From: Nitrospirales bacterium | GTDB lineage: Bacteria > Nitrospirota > Nitrospiria > Nitrospirales > UBA8639 | Direction of reading: 5' to 3' | Assembly (NCBI GenBank): GCA_029261295.1 | Contig: JAJDBP010000029.1 | Location: forward strand, 124,001-188,000 | DNA: 64,000 nucleotides | Shown: one piece after another, positions 50,252-64,000 of the stretch | How the letters are laid out: each line of letters starts with the position of its first letter | Position numbering within the stretch: position 1 is the stretch's first letter | Notes under the pieces: generated by a model | What the model was told of the DNA's origin: nothing | Databases searched by the model: none | The model's input: the letters and a program-made list of their open reading frames with translations, nothing else | Position numbers and translations under genes: made by a program

Positions 50252-50337
50252 AAGTTTACTCAAAACATTCGCGACCCGACCATTGTAAGTCTTTGATTTA
50301 TAAAGAACCAGCCTTTTTTATCCATACGCCAGCCAAG

Positions 50338-50353
50338 TGGCCCATCGGTTGCA
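50338..50353 (+). promoter_or_regulatory. Sigma-54 promoter of the cytochrome P460 gene
   Basis: TGGCCCATCGGTTGCA matches the -24/-12 consensus (TGGCAC, five bases, TTGCA) with the GG and GC pairs in correct register. The predicted start is near 50364, giving a short leader with AAGGAG before the ATG at 50401. Confidence 0.75.
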
Positions 50354-50400
50354 AAACAGCTCAACCAGGAAATCGCATTAAAAAAAAGAAGGAGATCAAA

Positions 50401-51000
50401 ATGAAGCGCACAACCCTCACATCATCCCTTCTCTTCCTGGCCACCATAAGTCTGCCAGGAGTGGCTATTGCGGAAGAGGAGAAGGCATTTGCCCCAAACG
50501 TAGACATGGCGACTGGTGAGATCAGTGTTCCGGCGGATTACACACTTTGGCCGACACTCGGCACATGGAGTCATGCCAAGATCGATGGCGGAGCAGTCAA
50601 CATTCACGAATATCATGTGGTGTACACCCAACCAACCACGATTGAGTATTACCAAAAGAAAGGACGCTTCCCGGATGGGGCAGTCCTGGTCAAAGAACTG
50701 CTTCATGCAGGAACCATGTCCATGACGACCGGTCCGGCCGTTGGTCATGCCACCACACTAAAGGGCTATTTTGTTCTGGTACGCGATACCAAAGGACGAT
50801 TCACAAACTCACCATTATGGGGTGATGGCTGGGGGTGGTCATTTTTTGACCCTGCTGATCTCAAAAAAACGACCTCCAAGGACTACAAAGTTGATTGTAT
50901 TCCCTGTCACGTGCCAGCCAAAGACCTCGCACCTCGGAATGCCAAAAAAGATGATAAGTGGATTTATACACTCGGATATCCGGTGCTTCAGAAGAAATAA
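50401..51000 (+). CDS. Cytochrome P460 family protein, first copy
   Basis: 199 residues starting at ATG 50401 (GAAGGAG seven bases upstream). Signal peptide (LFLATISLPGVAIA), then the P460 domain with FPDGAVLVKELL (about 90-101) and a single haem c site CIPCH at 166-170, followed by the conserved YTLGYPVL end. Cytochromes P460 carry haem c cross-linked to Lys and oxidise hydroxylamine, and related forms bind NO. It is less similar to the copies at 51610 and 63052 than those are to each other. The sigma-54 promoter and enhancer-like dyad upstream suggest induction by the divergent GAF activator, probably under nitrogen-oxide stress. Confidence 0.87.
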   Translation: MKRTTLTSSLLFLATISLPGVAIAEEEKAFAPNVDMATGEISVPADYTLWPTLGTWSHAKIDGGAVNIHEYHVVYTQPTTIEYYQKKGRFPDGAVLVKELLHAGTMSMTTGPAVGHATTLKGYFVLVRDTKGRFTNSPLWGDGWGWSFFDPADLKKTTSKDYKVDCIPCHVPAKDLAPRNAKKDDKWIYTLGYPVLQKK

Positions 51001-51609: not shown

Positions 51610-52215
51610 ATGCATGACCAAATACTCACTCGAATTCATTCAACAACACTTGGGGTGTTGGGAGGCCTTGTTTTGTTGTTAGGTTTTCTAGCAACTCCCT
51701 CGATTGCAGAGAAGAAAGGAGAACGCGTGTATTCGTTTAATGCCCAAGGCGAACTCATTCAACCGCAGGGGTACCGGGAGTGGATTTATGTTGGAACCCC
51801 CGTCACCCCAAATGAATTGAACAATGGGAAAGCGGCTTTCCCCGAGTTTCATAATGTGTATATCCATCCGGACCACTTCAAAAAATGGAAAAAGACCGGC
51901 GCCTTTCCTGATGGCACGATTCTCATGAAGGAATTAGTGAGTGTGGGGTCGAAGCAAGCAGTCAGCGGATCAGGTTACTTCATGGGGGAATTCATCGGTC
52001 TTGAGGCGACGATTAAGGACTCTAGGCGGTTCAAGAGTGAGCCAGGCCAATGGGCCTACTTTAGTTTCACTCGAGAAGGCAAGAAGCCTGCAAAGACTGG
52101 GAAAGCCTTCCCCGCCGATAAGTGCAATTTTTGCCATCAAGCATTTGCCAAGGATGACTGGGTATTCACGCAATATTACCCCGTACTCAGAGCAGCCAAG
52201 CCGGGTCGCAAGTAA
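51610..52215 (+). CDS. Cytochrome P460 family protein, second copy
   Basis: 201 residues from ATG 51610 (GGAGAGG four bases upstream). The signal peptide ends near TPSIA. The P460 features are FPDGTILMKELV (about 99-110) and the haem c site CNFCH at 172-176, with TQYYPVL near the end. It is nearly identical to the copy at 63052 from residue 20 on. A small periplasmic protein gene follows after 84 bases, as at the other copy. Expected role: periplasmic oxidation or binding of hydroxylamine or NO. No good sigma-54 box was found in its upstream 160 bases. Confidence 0.87.
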   Translation: MHDQILTRIHSTTLGVLGGLVLLLGFLATPSIAEKKGERVYSFNAQGELIQPQGYREWIYVGTPVTPNELNNGKAAFPEFHNVYIHPDHFKKWKKTGAFPDGTILMKELVSVGSKQAVSGSGYFMGEFIGLEATIKDSRRFKSEPGQWAYFSFTREGKKPAKTGKAFPADKCNFCHQAFAKDDWVFTQYYPVLRAAKPGRK

Positions 52216-52299
52216 AAGCCATGTAGCGTTAGTCGTCTTTTGCTCACAGTCCTGTTCAAAAACGAAACTTTATATTCGCTCATTCACGGAGGTAGCAAG

Positions 52300-52692
52300 A
52301 TGAAAATCATCCTATCAGCAGTCTGTCTCTCTCTCGTCTTCATGGCCGGCATGGCATGGGGCGAACATCCTGGCGTGGCGACCTCTCATCGTGACGCCAT
52401 TCAGAAAGCCATGATGACGCATATCGAGGAGGTCACGGAGCACAATGCGAACGGCATGTATCCCGTGTTCGATCCTGATGCGAAGACCGTGGTTCAGTTG
52501 AAGCTCAAAAAATTTCACGACAGTGTGGAAATCATGGGGAGAAAGACCCCCTATTTTGTGAGTTGTGCCGACTTCACGGCTGAGGATGGCACACTTTATG
52601 ATCTGGACTTCCTCGTTTCGAGAAAATATGCTGTCGTGGGGACTCTGATGCATTCGAAAAACGGTACGCACATTAGCTATGAGATTCCATAA
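52300..52692 (+). CDS. Small periplasmic protein paired with cytochrome P460, first copy
   Basis: 130 residues from ATG 52300, which follows GGAGGTAGCAAG; an in-frame ATG at 52240 lacks a ribosome-binding site. A signal peptide (LSLVFMAGMAWG) precedes a domain of about 110 residues with GVATSHRDAIQKAMMTHI, NGMYPVFDPDAKTVVQLKL and a C-terminal beta-rich part (CADFTAEDGTLYDLDFLV). I do not recognise the family. The same gene follows the duplicated P460 at 63052, so the pair was duplicated together and probably works together. Confidence 0.75.
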   Translation: MKIILSAVCLSLVFMAGMAWGEHPGVATSHRDAIQKAMMTHIEEVTEHNANGMYPVFDPDAKTVVQLKLKKFHDSVEIMGRKTPYFVSCADFTAEDGTLYDLDFLVSRKYAVVGTLMHSKNGTHISYEIP

Positions 52693-52789
52693 CAAGGCGA
52701 AAGTAAGTCGAGGGCCATTTCTTCAAAGCTTTCGATCCCAGGCGAAGATCCGACTTCCTTAAAACTATCAATCAATGGAAGATTTTACC

Positions 52790-53257
52790 ATGTTCAAAAA
52801 ACCCTTATGTTCAGATTTCTTAGCTACCATGCTGATCCTGACATGTGTAGGAGCAGGGAGTATGGCACTACTCAGCACACCCAATCTGATCCATGCTGAA
52901 GAAACCAAGTCACTGTATGATCGGTTAGGAGGAATAGACCCGATTACGGCCGTGGTTGATGAATTCGCCAATCGGCTCGTGGCCGACCAGACGGTAGGCG
53001 GACGTTTTGCATCTGCCGACGCGAAGAGGTTTAAAATGCTTAATACGGAATTAGTCTGCCAGTCCACTGGCGGTCCTTGAAAATATTCAGGTCGGGCTAT
53101 GAAGGATACTCACAACGGAATGCGAATTTCCAATGCAGAATTTGATATCGTAGCAGGGCATCTGGCTACGACCTTGAAAAAATTCAAGGTACCCAAACAG
53201 GAGGGCAAAGAACTCTTGGCAAGTATCGGCTCGTTGAAGAAGGATATCGTAGAGTGA
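52790..53257 (+). pseudogene. Group I truncated haemoglobin with an in-frame TGA at a Cys codon
   Basis: From the ATG at 52790 (GGAAG eight bases upstream) the frame reads a signal peptide (VGAGSMALLSTPNLIHA), then SLYDRLGGIDPITAVVDEF, and on to CQSTGGP. The next codon is TGA (53078-53080), and the same frame then continues KYSGRAMKDTHNGM and on to a normal end KKDIVE at 53257. Related globins often have Cys at this place (GGPCKY). The proximal haem His (MKDTH) lies after the TGA, so a product ending there could not bind haem normally. Either this is a recent nonsense mutation, a sequencing error, or TGA is read as selenocysteine. I list it as interrupted; no convincing SECIS hairpin is visible. 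Confidence 0.7.
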
Positions 53258-55089: not shown

Positions 55090-58000
55090 TCAGACTGGCT
55101 TTTTGAGCCCCATTTTTTTGATTCGTGAGTGAAGAGTGGTGGGTTTGACTCCCAGCAGTTCAGCAGCACCTCCCGGGCCGCCGACCTTCCAGTTGCTCCG
55201 CCTGAGGGCAGCTAATATATTTTCCCGCTCGCGATGAGGCTTCTCTGCCTCAGGTATCAGGTCCATCTCGTTTGACGCTTTAGGGATTGCGGCTGATGAC
55301 GCAATGGACTCTGAAGGTTGCACGAGATCCGGCAGATCGAAGTGAAGCGCATGACCACGCGAGGTGATGACAGCCCGCTCGATGACATTCTGCAATTCTC
55401 GCACGTTACCCGGCCAATCATATCCTTGCAAGGTAACCGCATGGGCCTGAGTTAATCCGAGTTGACCACAATTGAATTTTCTCGCGGCGAGATCAAGAAG
55501 GTGGGAGGCGAGCAACGGAATATCTTCCTTTCGACTGCATAACGGGGGGATCTCAATGGGATACACATTGAGACGGTAATACAGATCTTTTCGGAATCGC
55601 CCTGCTTCAACTTCTTGTCGCAAATCGCGATTCGTGGCAGCGATAATTCGCACATCCACCTGTCGCGTTCGGTCATCTCCGACGCGCTCATATTCCTGTT
55701 CTTGAAGAACCCGCAATAATTTATTTTGGAGCTCCAATGGAATCTCCCCCACCTCATCGAGAAAAAGTGTGCCTTCGTCTGCCAGCTCAAACCGTCCAGC
55801 TCGGTCTTTCAAGGCCCCAGTAAACGCGCCCTTTACATGTCCAAAGAACTCACTCTCATAGAGTTCCTTCGGGATGGAAGCGCAATTCACACGAATCAAC
55901 GGTCTATGCTGGCGTTCGCTTCGTTTATGAATCTCGCGGGCAACCAGCTCTTTACCGGTACCGGATTCACCAAGAATGAGTACACTCGCGTTGGTGGGCG
56001 CCACATGCTCGATCTGGCCAACGACTGCCCGCAAGACTTCGCTCCGACCCACGAGATCCCCGAATCCCTGTTCGGCGTTGATCTCCTCGTGCAGATACAC
56101 ATTTTCTTGCTCTAGTCGATGCTTCAAACGCTGGAGTTCCTCTAACGCTTCACGAAGTTCTTGTTCCGATTTTTTACGTTCTTCATATAACCCAGCGTTT
56201 TCCAGAGAGATGGTGGCCTGGGCAGTCAGACTTTGGAGAATCTCGACGCGGTCAGCCGTAAACACCCCGGAAGCGAGACCATGAACGAGATAGAGCACCC
56301 CAACCGCGTCCCCACGGCCCATGATGGGAACACATAATACCGACCGAGGTCGTAGTCGACGGACCACAGAATCTCCTGAAAAGCGAGGATCTTCCACAGC
56401 ATCGGCAATCGACAAAACTTCTTTTGTTCGAATGACGTAGTTCACGATACTTACTGGCACATCTTCAGCCGAACCGATTTCAATGGCTGGACGATACCGA
56501 ATCTCACCCTGATCAAACGTACTCGACGCTTCCATGAGTAGCGTGCCTTTCTTCATAAGTAAAAGATAGCCTTGCTGCGCGCCTGCGGTCTCAACCGCGA
56601 TCCGAATCAATTTTTTGACCAGTCCATCGAGGTCGACTTCTCGTGAAATTGTCCGTGAAGCCTTCATCACTGCGGCAAAGTCCAGCGCAGCACCGGTACT
56701 GCTTAAGAGAGTCAAAAAAGGCATGGACGTGGTACTTGAGGATTTCCTAGACATTGCAGTCCCGGCGATAAGGCCGCCCTGCTCTTTTACGAGCAAACGA
56801 GCCTTCCTTGAAGATCCCCAAAGTTGATAGCCGTGATGGGCTTCGCTGAGATACACAGCAGCTATCTTTAGCCGCTTCTGTCCGAGCCAGAACAGGCCGG
56901 CTCGCTCACGCGCCAAAGCTTCTTCTTGAAGGTACCCGTTACGGCCCGCTTCTTCGATTGCACGATCGTAAAGCTCGGCAGCCCGCCACCCATCGTCTTC
57001 GAGTCGAGCAATTTCGGCTGAGACAAGTAAAGACTTATGCAGGAAATTATCTGGACAGCTATCAGCCCATTGTTGTAGCTGCCGCTGCCGAACCTTAATC
57101 TGTTCAATGTGATCGGGGCTGACTCCGTGAGGGGTACGCTCTAGGGCAGCGATCGCAATGAGTGAGGCATAAAACTCATAGACAGCGGTAGCGACGTGGC
57201 CTGAAATAAACGAGAGAGCTGCCGCTGCTTTTTCCGAGCAGATTTGCGCCTCTTCTATCCGACCATAGATGTACAGCACCTGGCTTTTGATAATGTTGTA
57301 GTGGGCAATCGTCGGCATAGCTGCCCTTGAGACCAGATCTTCCAGAAATTCTAAATCGTGAATGTGTTCGAATAAGAAAGAACCGGGTTCTGGCGTGTCC
57401 CCAGCTAAATCTAACGTGGCACGCATGACGGCCACGACGGGATCTGTGGCATGTTGATTGTGGGTCTTGCGCCCGAATCGGATCAATTCCTCTAGCTCAG
57501 ATACAAGTTCTTTCAGGTTGGTACCGAGATGGAACAAACACAACGACCTATTGTAATAGTGGTAGCCGGCGAACTGGAGTTCACCCGATTGCAGACCAGC
57601 TTGGAATCCACGACGATTGATGGCATCGAAGTCTCGCAAATGCTTACTCCAATGATTGATGGAGGTGCAGAATAGGTGTGTGGTTTTGCACATTTGTGAC
57701 GAGTCGGAATACTTATCGCTCAATGCCATAGCCAGTTGACCGAATCTGTAGGCCTCGGGATAGTTGTGGAGCACAGAACTCTGCAATAAACCAAAGAAGG
57801 CATACCCTATTGCCGAATCGGGAGTATGACCATGAGTGAGCGAAAGATTGACGATCTTCACGGTAGCGACAAGACGCAGAGGTGGATCGGCGATGTAGCA
57901 CAGTGGGAGAATGTTGGCTAGAAGCCGAAGGGCAATGGCCACCTCACGCGAGGTGACCTCCGGTGAGTTGAGCAACGATGGAGGATCGCGCCCGTCCAAG

Positions 58001-60624
58001 GCCTCTGAGTAACGAACTAGTTCCTCGCGAAGTGCGACTTCTAAGTCTCCTGCAGGCATAGTGACGTTCAGTTTCGCAAGCGCCTCACAACCCGTCGTGA
58101 TAGCTTGCCGATAATGCCCACTGAGAGTCTGCTGGACGACCAGCACACTCTGTACCTCGGCTTGCTCGGCTGGCGTGTGCAATTGCTGAAGCATCGTGCT
58201 AATCAACTCTTGAGATAACTCGAAGTCACCACGAAGGTATTCAGCCTCTACTCTTACCCGATAGAGATCACGCGTGAATTCGTAATCAGTCTGCCAGCAG
58301 TCATTGGGTAGAAGGCCCAACCCTGCGACTGCATAGTCGCAACCGGCCCCATACGCTGTGGCGGAGACGGCCCGACGAGCGGCCTCAAGATTCAGATTAG
58401 CCAATTCCTTACGCTTAGATTGGTCATTGAGCAGGTCGCTCCCCACGTTGAGATGATCAACGACTTCAAACACACGTTCGGAATGGGCCACGTTGAGAAT
58501 GCTTGCCTGAAGCTGTAGGCCAACTTGAAGGTGAATTTCTTGTTTCAATTGTTCGCTGAGCATCGCGTAGGCTGCCTGCTGAACGCGGTCATGCAAAAAA
58601 CGAAACTTCTGTTGCTCGGTTTTAGCTCCGGGAGAGTTCTGCCGACCGAATTGATTGCGGTCCGGTATAACCAAGCCGGCCTCAAGTGCGGGGGTCAACT
58701 GATCGAGGACTTTGTTTTTCTTGTCAGTTGAAAGTAACTCAAGCGTAGCCGGATCGAAACGACTTCCGATGCACGCTGCTAGCCTAAGAGCGTGTAAAGT
58801 CTCTTGCGGCAACTCACTCAAACGGCTAATCATGAGATCGACGACATTGTTCGTAATATTCATCGCCTCAAGCTCTTCAGTATCCCAAATCCATCGATTA
58901 AGAGAGTAATCAAATGTAATGCTGCCCTGCCGGTACAATGTTGTCAGAACCTGTTTGAGGAAAAAAGGATTCCCGGCGGTTTTGTCGAGTACCAGCTGCT
59001 GAAGCCGATCAATATCCTCACGATCACCATGCAGGGTGTCCCAAAGCAACTGAGTGATGGAGTCCGAAGTCAGTGGATCTATCGAGAGCCGGCTCGCACG
59101 AAGACGCCCCTCCGACATGAGTGCGTTGACCGCTGCCGTGAGCGGGTGCGAGGAATCGACCTCGTTGTCCCGATACGCGCCCACAAGTAAGAAGTGGTGA
59201 CTGTCGTCGTCAGTCAAAATGGTGTCAATCAGTGCCAAGGAGGCTGGGTCAACCCACTGGAGATCATCAAGGAAAATGACTAAAGGATGCTCCGCTTGAC
59301 AGAAGACCCTAATGAAGCTTCGAAACACAAACTTGAAGCGGTTTCGACTCTCAGAGGAGTTCAACTTAGGGATAGCCAGTTGTGGCCCGAGGATGTGTTG
59401 GACTTCCGGGATGACATCGATCACTAACTGCCCGTTGCCATCAAGTGCTTGAAGGAGGCTGTCTTTCCACGCCACAAGGGCTTCGTCAGATTCCGTTAAC
59501 AACTGAGCAACGAGATCCTTGAGGGCCGTGACGAAGGCACTATAGGGCACGGTCAATTGTAGTTGATCGAACTTTCCTGAGATAAAATAGCCATGTTGTT
59601 CTGTGACTGGCGCGTGCACCTCATGGACTAATGCAGACTTTCCAATTCCGGAGTGGCCGGCGATCAGGACGAGTTCGACTCCCCCTTGCCCTGCACGGTC
59701 AAAGGCCGTCATGAGCGTCTCTACCTCTCTCTCCCGACCGTAAAGCTTTCTAGGAATCTCGAATCGATCATTCACATCCTGTCGCCCGGGACGGAAGTCT
59801 TCCGGATCACCCTGAAGGTGCTCTTGACATGAAAGAAGGTCGTGCTTAATGCCCAACGCACTCTGGTACCGATCCTCTGGTGCTTTCTCCAGTAGCTTAC
59901 TAATGACCGCACTCAATGAACGCGGGACATCTTGCCGGGCCTCAAAAAGCGGCGGTGACGGGACCGCAAGGTGGTGGTAGATCAACTCCATCGGATCGAC
60001 AGGCTGAAACGGAAGACGACCACTGAACAGTTCGAACAGGGTGATTCCAAGTGAGTAGAAGTCGCTGCGATAATCAACGGGCCTGTTCATCCGGCCCGTC
60101 TGTTCAGGAGAGAGATAGGGCAAGGTGCCTTCTAATCTGCTGGGGTGAGATACCGGCAAATGGTCTTCTGCTTGCCGTGTCGCAATACCAAAGTCGATTA
60201 ACGAAATGGCACCGGTCGGGTCGACAAGCACATTGGCTGGATTGATGTCTCTGTGAACAACATGCTGACGATGCACCCCTTCCAGCACATTGGCGATACC
60301 AACAGCGATATGTAACCGAGATTCGAGATCAAAATCTGATGAACGAATAAACTCGGCAAGCGTCGAGCCACCTCGGTCTTCAAAAATGAGATCAAACGCG
60401 TTCGCATTAGGGATGAGCCCATATGCACGGGGAACCCCGTCGACGGAAAGGGTAGATAAAATATCGAATTCGTGTTTGACGGCAGCCACATCCTCTTCCG
60501 TGGCCATTCCTACGAGGAACGATTTGATGATCACCGGCGCGTGATCGCTATCCCTCACGCCGCGGTGCACAATTCGCCTTTGGCTCCTATAGAGTTCCTC
60601 GTGAACCGTATAGCCTTTGAACAT
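55090..60624 (-). CDS. Ser/Thr kinase - AAA ATPase - GAF - sigma-54 activator fusion
   Basis: About 1844 residues from the ATG at 60624, which has GGAGG five bases upstream; an in-frame start at 60684 lacks one. Domains in order: Ser/Thr protein kinase (about 1-265; [11 protein letters not shown] and DFGIATR catalytic loops), an AAA_16/NACHT-like ATPase (GHSGIGKS near 326; FLDDLQWVD), a long helical TPR-like region (about 700-1270), a GAF domain (about 1300-1470), a coiled coil, a sigma-54 AAA domain ([22 protein letters not shown]; about 1510-1740) and a Fis HTH (about 1805-1844). The kinase-AAA-GAF part is a known sensor design that usually ends in a histidine kinase; here the output is direct control of sigma-54 promoters. 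Confidence 0.9.
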
Positions 60625-61037
60625 GCTTTCCTCCGGGACCAGTCTGGAACGAGCTCTCACCCTTCCCGATGAGCTAGGAAACAAGGTTTCCTAGACACCT
60701 CCCTAAGCTTCAATTATCGAGAAAGTATTCTTTGCGGCTCCGGCTCTGCCCCATTTCTCCTCCAGCTTTTCCCTTCTCCGGCCTCCGCTTAATGATGTGT
60801 CCATTTGTACTTAGGAAATCAAGAAGTCAACGATATACGAGATTTCGTATGTACGCAACGAGTCTTTGTACTCTACGAAATTTCACACTCAGAAAGTAAC
60901 TGATGGAAATTAGATAACCAACAGTATTTCAAAGGGTTAGGTCTAAATAGATGATTGGCATGTTAATTGGAAATAGCGTCAATCAAGAACGCAAATTTTG
61001 GCTACAAACCAATTCAAAGGTGGAAAGGAACAGATCA
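60625..61037. promoter_or_regulatory. Divergent region between the giant activator and the sigma-like gene
   Basis: About 410 bases, A+T-rich toward the right. A dyad at 60836-60851 (ATACGA, GATT, TCGTAT) and a second TACGAAA at about 60885 could be regulator sites. An in-frame ATG at 60951 would extend the sigma-like protein but has no ribosome-binding site. Confidence 0.4.
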
Positions 61038-63051: not shown

Positions 63052-63654
63052 ATGCGTCTACCATCATTCATCCGACCCTTACCAACCTTACTTGGGGTGG
63101 CCGGATGCCTTGTTTCGTTGTTGGGTTTTCACGCAACTCCCTCGATTGCAGAGAAGAAAGGAGAACGCGTGTATTCGTTTAATGACCAAGGCGAACTCAT
63201 CCAACCTCAAGGGTATCGGGAGTGGATTTATGTGGGAACTCCCGTCACCCCCAATGAATTGAACAATGGGAAGGCCGCGTTTCCTGAGTTTCATAACGTC
63301 TATATCCATCCGGATCACTTCAAAAAATGGAAAAAGACCGGCGCTTTCCCTGATGGCACGATTCTCATGAAGGAATTAGTGAGCGTAGGGTCGAAACAAG
63401 CAGTCAGCGGGGCCGGTTATTTCATGGGAGAGTTCATCGGCCTTGAGGCAACAATCAAGGACTCCAAGCGGTTCAAAAGTGAACCAGGTAATTGGGCCTA
63501 TTTCAGCTTCACGCAGGAAGGCAAGAAACCAACAAAGACAACCAAAGCGATGCCGGCCGATAAGTGCAATTTTTGCCATCAAGCATTTGCCAAGGATGAC
63601 TGGGTCTTTACGCAATATTATCCCGTACTCAGAGCAGCCAAACCCGGTCGGTAG
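63052..63654 (+). CDS. Cytochrome P460 family protein, third copy
   Basis: 200 residues from ATG 63052 (GAAGGAG upstream). The signal peptide differs from the 51610 copy over the first 20 residues, and the rest is nearly identical, including FPDGTILMKELV and the haem c site CNFCHQAFAKDDWVF near 171. The following gene and the gap between them are also copied from the 51610-52692 block, so the whole block was duplicated over about 11.4 kb. Expected activity is as for the other copies. The divergent signal region and upstream DNA suggest separate expression. Confidence 0.87.
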   Translation: MRLPSFIRPLPTLLGVAGCLVSLLGFHATPSIAEKKGERVYSFNDQGELIQPQGYREWIYVGTPVTPNELNNGKAAFPEFHNVYIHPDHFKKWKKTGAFPDGTILMKELVSVGSKQAVSGAGYFMGEFIGLEATIKDSKRFKSEPGNWAYFSFTQEGKKPTKTTKAMPADKCNFCHQAFAKDDWVFTQYYPVLRAAKPGR

Positions 63655-63740
63655 TAACAGCCATGAAACCGTATTCGTTTGTTGCTCAAGGTCATGTTCA
63701 AAAATAAAATTTTTCATTCCTCATTCACGGAGGTAGCAAA

Positions 63741-64000
63741 ATGAAGATCACCCTATCAACAGTCTGTCTCTCTCTCGTCCTCATGGCCGGCATGGCATGG
63801 GCCGAACATCCTGGCGTAGCCACCAATCATCGTGATGCCATTCAAAAAGCCATGATGACGCACATCAAGGAAATCGCGTCACACAATGCGAACGGGATGT
63901 ACCCCGTGTTCGATCCTCATTCAAAGACGGTCGTTCAGTTGAAGCTCAAAGAATTTCACAACAGCGTAGAAATCATGGGGAGAGCCACACCCTATTTTGT
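63741..64000 (+). CDS. Small periplasmic protein paired with P460, second copy (cut by window end)
   Basis: From ATG 63741, after GGAGGTAGCAAA, 86 codons are visible before the right edge. The signal peptide (LSLVLMAGMAWA) and the sequence HPGVATNHRDAIQKAMMTHI match the gene at 52300-52692 at most positions, with a few substitutions (for example HSK for DAK). No family is recognised. The missing C-terminus would be about 44 residues if it matches its paralogue. Confidence 0.75.
   Translation, partial: MKITLSTVCLSLVLMAGMAWAEHPGVATNHRDAIQKAMMTHIKEIASHNANGMYPVFDPHSKTVVQLKLKEFHNSVEIMGRATPYF

Follow-up and report, generated by a model that had tools for sequence, protein, structure and literature searches.

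In a truncated-globin gene of a Nitrospirales bacterium, the reading frame is broken by a TGA in place of a codon that encodes cysteine in nearly all aligned relatives. It belongs to a duplicated block of genes, and an intact paralogue is located on the same contig. All the observations can be accounted for by ordinary steps if a redundant duplicate recently acquired a nonsense mutation, and we have good confidence in this origin of the stop. The case is most likely an ordinary recent loss of a duplicate gene, or else a sequence error. The analysed region, below called the window, is the whole stretch of 64,000 nucleotides.

The interrupted globin gene

The gene and its internal stop have the following positions.

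52775..53257, + strand: truncated-globin gene (PF01152) interrupted by TGA, with the start codon ATG at 52775 and a read-through product of 160 aa
53078-53080, + strand: the in-frame TGA, in an alignment column with Cys in 32 of the 33 aligned relatives

The read-through protein consists of an N-terminal hydrophobic stretch, judged by eye, and a truncated-globin domain. It matches the Pfam family PF01152 (Bac_globin) with 56.6 bits (cut-off 21) over positions 1-119 of the 121 in the profile, that is, end to end, as expected of a truncated haemoglobin. The stop is at residue 102 of the 160, and the open product has 101 residues. Unlike the truncated haemoglobins, this pre-stop product has lost the match to the family, and no Pfam family at all was found in it at E<=0.001. 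The proximal haem histidine, which we take to be the histidine of the motif MKDTHNGM, is encoded 3' of the stop. The open frame therefore encodes neither this presumed proximal histidine nor the complete globin fold. After the TGA the frame continues through 58 stop-free codons up to a second TGA at 53255-53257, which is the terminator of the gene. The position of the TGA and the clean frame after it agree with the original prediction, which had described an in-frame TGA at the usual cysteine codon of a truncated haemoglobin and 58 coding codons after it in an otherwise undamaged gene.

Among the 33 aligned relatives, cysteine occupies the column of the TGA in 32 and methionine in one. Each locus is represented in this alignment by its best tblastn match only. 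Records describing the same gene were removed: L026 and L027, which, to judge by their coordinates, duplicate the records L057 and L055, respectively; L003, which is the same gene as L065; and L001 and L025, which are the window gene. Broken copies (L058-L064) and globin matches lacking a locus were also set aside.

The cysteine at residue 95, shared with the relatives, is present in all 34 rows of the alignment, the interrupted gene included. Residues 95 and 102 (codons 53057-53059 and 53078-53080) correspond to a Cys-x6-Cys pair that nearly all relatives have just N-terminal of the presumed proximal histidine.

The duplicated block

The interrupted globin and its paralogue are each the last gene of a block consisting of a cytochrome P460 gene, a small gene without a Pfam match, and the globin gene.

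51610..52215, + strand: intact member of the cytochrome P460 family (assigned by Pfam), first gene of the extra block
52300..52692, + strand: intact small gene without a Pfam match, second gene of the extra block
63052..63654, + strand: first gene of the second block, a cytochrome P460 gene located where congeners also have it
63741..64000, + strand: second copy of the small gene, cut by the window edge after its initial part; the intact globin comes after it
contig C22 188175-188654, outside the window, 175 bases past its end: intact globin paralogue

The intact paralogue is located approximately 11.4 kb downstream of the interrupted gene and has 71% identity to the read-through protein. The identity between the two copies is 89.0% for P460, 82.3% for the small genes and 70.8% for the globins. 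The intact block is situated beside kinase-like, DsrE-like and sigma-factor genes, and the same arrangement is observed in two congeners (L055 and L057), whose globins have 95.5% and 97.4% identity to the intact one. As the intact globin occupies the position common to these congeners, the block at 51610-53257 is the extra copy. The best matches in both congeners are syntenic with the intact copy, not with the interrupted one. No orthologue of the interrupted globin was found in other genomes, the best matches outside the window genome being 68-70% identical, and no relative of the gene was found on viral contigs.

Hydroxylamine and nitric oxide are the compounds on which cytochrome P460 proteins act; for truncated globins of this kind, a common task is the handling of nitric oxide or oxygen. 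Thus, the block may serve nitrogen-oxide handling, and the intact block may have kept this putative role. The small gene at 52300-52692 is conserved (motif HPGVATxHRDAIQKAMMTHI) and located between the P460 and globin genes in all five blocks compared, and this position suggests a shared role.

Two further observations concern the neighbourhood. One more P460 gene is found at 50293-51000, beside the duplicated blocks 51610-53257 and 63052-64000, the latter running past the window. An open reading frame of 1864 codons at 55090-60684 encodes, as judged by eye, a putative fusion of a Ser/Thr kinase, an ATPase, a GAF domain and a sigma-54 activator.

Selenocysteine machinery and candidate SECIS elements

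The window gene shares with those bacterial selenoprotein genes that have cysteine homologues an in-frame TGA in a cysteine column and a conserved downstream frame. A selenocysteine-containing globin, if true, would represent a new selenoprotein family. However, a young nonsense mutation also produces a TGA in a cysteine column and leaves the frame intact, and it is the presence or absence of sel genes in the genome that decides.

The genome (G000; 4.06 Mb in 38 contigs, completeness 100, the window contig being C22) has no match to SelA (PF03841); the same search was positive in two of 14 control genomes, one of which is that of E. coli. The best SelB match scores 126 bits, below the cut-off of 242.25, and the protein is CysN-like. 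For SelD, the top match is a thiamine-phosphate kinase with 76 bits (cut-off 125). The single tRNA-Sec candidate above the gathering score (47.6 bits against 47) was rejected, since ARAGORN reads it as tRNA-Ser(TGA). None of the 44 tRNA matches of the genome, all of them read by ARAGORN, has the anticodon TCA. The search of the genome for selA, selB, selC and selD, proposed initially as a check, therefore has a negative outcome. Since tRNA-Ile(GAT) and tRNA-Ala(TGC) are not seen among the tRNAs, some loci are probably absent from the assembly; joint loss of selA, selB, selC and selD in an assembly gap is not plausible.

No genome of the genus has SelA (0 of 20). In the order it was found in three of 97 genomes, all of which belong to another family (f2). 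Two of these (G051 and G062) have stop-free globin matches, and the third (G048) has no globin match.

Genome-wide reassignment of UGA was also considered and rejected, because the genome encodes RF2 (514 bits, cut-off 370), the anticodon of its tRNA-Trp is CCA, and the globin gene itself ends in TGA.

A hairpin downstream of the stop had been noted earlier.

53086..53103, + strand: hairpin with a 4-bp stem TTCA/TGAA and a 10-nt loop, not a SECIS element

The bacterial SECIS model, as formulated in a recent review (PMC13188914), has an apical loop of 3-9 nt with G in the first two positions, an upper stem of 4-16 bp, a distance of 16-37 nt from the UGA, and an energy of at most -7.5 kcal/mol. 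The hairpin has a loop of 10 nt, a spacing of 9 nt and an energy of -0.4 kcal/mol in a constrained fold, and thus fails three of these limits. It had already been described as closer and weaker than normal bacterial SECIS elements. Its start had been placed about seven bases after the TGA; the actual distance is 5 nt, with 53086-53089 pairing with 53100-53103 around the ten-base loop. The same TTCA/TGAA stem is present in the relative L056, where the codon in question encodes cysteine, and so the stem is ordinary coding sequence.

No other candidate stem-loops with the bacterial SECIS geometry were observed after the TGA at 53078-53080. The + strand of the window has 1189 TGA trinucleotides, and 148 of them pass the same geometry scan with the energy limit. 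The RNA 3' of the TGA folds no better than shuffled sequences, the z-scores for three stretches being +0.39, +1.30 and +0.43. A search of the vicinity of the gene with Rfam yielded three matches up to E 10, all of them below the gathering score and none from a SECIS family.

Literature searches combining selenocysteine with truncated hemoglobin, and selenoprotein with globin and in-frame UGA, retrieved no selenocysteine-containing globin. A term search for 'globin' in the main text of four papers on selenoproteins, PMC13188914, PMC9312934, PMC12013277 and PMC2398784 gave no occurrences.

Origin of the stop codon

The interrupted copy shows no sign of further decay. Of the 55 alignment positions with at least 80% conservation among the other sequences, seven differ in it, compared with 6, 7, 8 and 6 in the four nearest intact genes. 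In a three-point estimate, dN after the stop is 0.056 on the window branch and 0.063 on the branch of the intact copy. Omega was estimated at about 0.7 for the window branch; with bootstrap values from 0.23 to more than 100, the estimate is too noisy to show relaxed constraint, partly owing to saturated synonymous sites. With no further decay, there are three options for the stop: a very recent origin, an error of the assembly, or a gene that in some way still works despite it. Selection on the interrupted copy would have acted until the stop arose.

The scenario that we consider highly probable starts with the appearance of the extra block, with the interrupted gene as its globin member. The conserved cysteine codon would then have been converted to TGA by a recent nonsense substitution. 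RF2 would terminate translation there, leaving a fragment of 101 residues in which the proximal histidine and the latter half of the globin fold are missing. The interrupted copy would thus yield no working globin, and its loss would be tolerated because of the intact paralogue 11.4 kb away. Three points here are inferred: a real and recent stop, termination of translation at it, and a paralogue that covers the function. In agreement with this, intact homologues exist (the paralogue on C22 and the loci L055-L057), and broken globins are frequent in the genus (see below). Two facts speak against a nonsense mutation. One is the clean state of the 58 downstream codons, together with a number of deviations at conserved sites no higher than in intact genes. 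The other is the position of the stop exactly on a conserved cysteine codon. In four intact relatives there are 51-59 single-base routes to a stop per gene, of which one is at the cysteine codon equivalent to the TGA. Hence, a stop on exactly this codon has a chance of about 1 in 50-60, which is not striking for one picked case.

A consensus or base-calling error, with the gene intact in the organism, would yield the same sequence as a real nonsense mutation, and a single wrong base at the cysteine codon would suffice in a gene that has no other damage or decay. However, the neighbouring genes are open, including the frame of 1864 codons, and so the assembly is not error-rich here; besides, broken globins are common in the genus. 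We consider such an error rather unlikely. Of the three explanations offered by the original prediction, the recent nonsense mutation and the base-calling error are retained, whereas selenocysteine finds no support from sel genes, tRNA-Sec or SECIS elements.

Low-level read-through of the UGA by a near-cognate tRNA would produce some full-length globin and keep the downstream frame under selection, in agreement with the lack of excess amino-acid change in that frame. On the other hand, no suppressor tRNA was found among the 44 tRNA matches, the youth of the stop explains the clean frame equally well, and an intact paralogue is present. We regard read-through as very improbable, and slightly more so its particular variant in which the interrupted copy is made in full, carrying some ordinary amino acid instead of the cysteine and giving a globin without this cysteine beside the paralogue.

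Insertion of selenocysteine at the TGA, giving a selenocysteine-containing truncated globin, agrees with the position of the stop exactly on a conserved cysteine and with the intact downstream frame, but it is contradicted on five counts (SelA, missing from the whole genus as well; SelB and SelD, both under their cut-offs; tRNA-Sec; and SECIS, with no suitable stem-loop and folding at the level of shuffled sequences), and we reject it as having practically no chance of being true. Unlike the bacterial selenoprotein genes, the window gene has no SECIS element and resides in a genome with neither sel genes nor tRNA-Sec. Moreover, among 100 globin matches from a sample of 198 genomes of the phylum only one contains a stop, and that one is the window gene, so that there is no second case to back a selenocysteine-containing globin.

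At the level of the genus, stops were observed in 8 of 40 globin match rows, compared with none of 82 in other genera (counted by hand). The eight rows are the window gene, a match in G005 with stops before the likely start, and six broken loci: L058, L059, L060, L062, L063 and L064. The latter come from four of the 19 congeners (G003, G004, G009 and G018). In the printed alignments, which show the frame of L059 partly, none of the six loci has its stop at the cysteine codon. Like the window gene, these paralogues are disrupted by stops or frame shifts. However, their similarity to the window gene is lower, and more than one lesion is present in several of them, whereas the window gene has a single stop. 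Of modest interest is the genus itself, in which small haem-protein genes, globins among them, have repeatedly been duplicated and lost.
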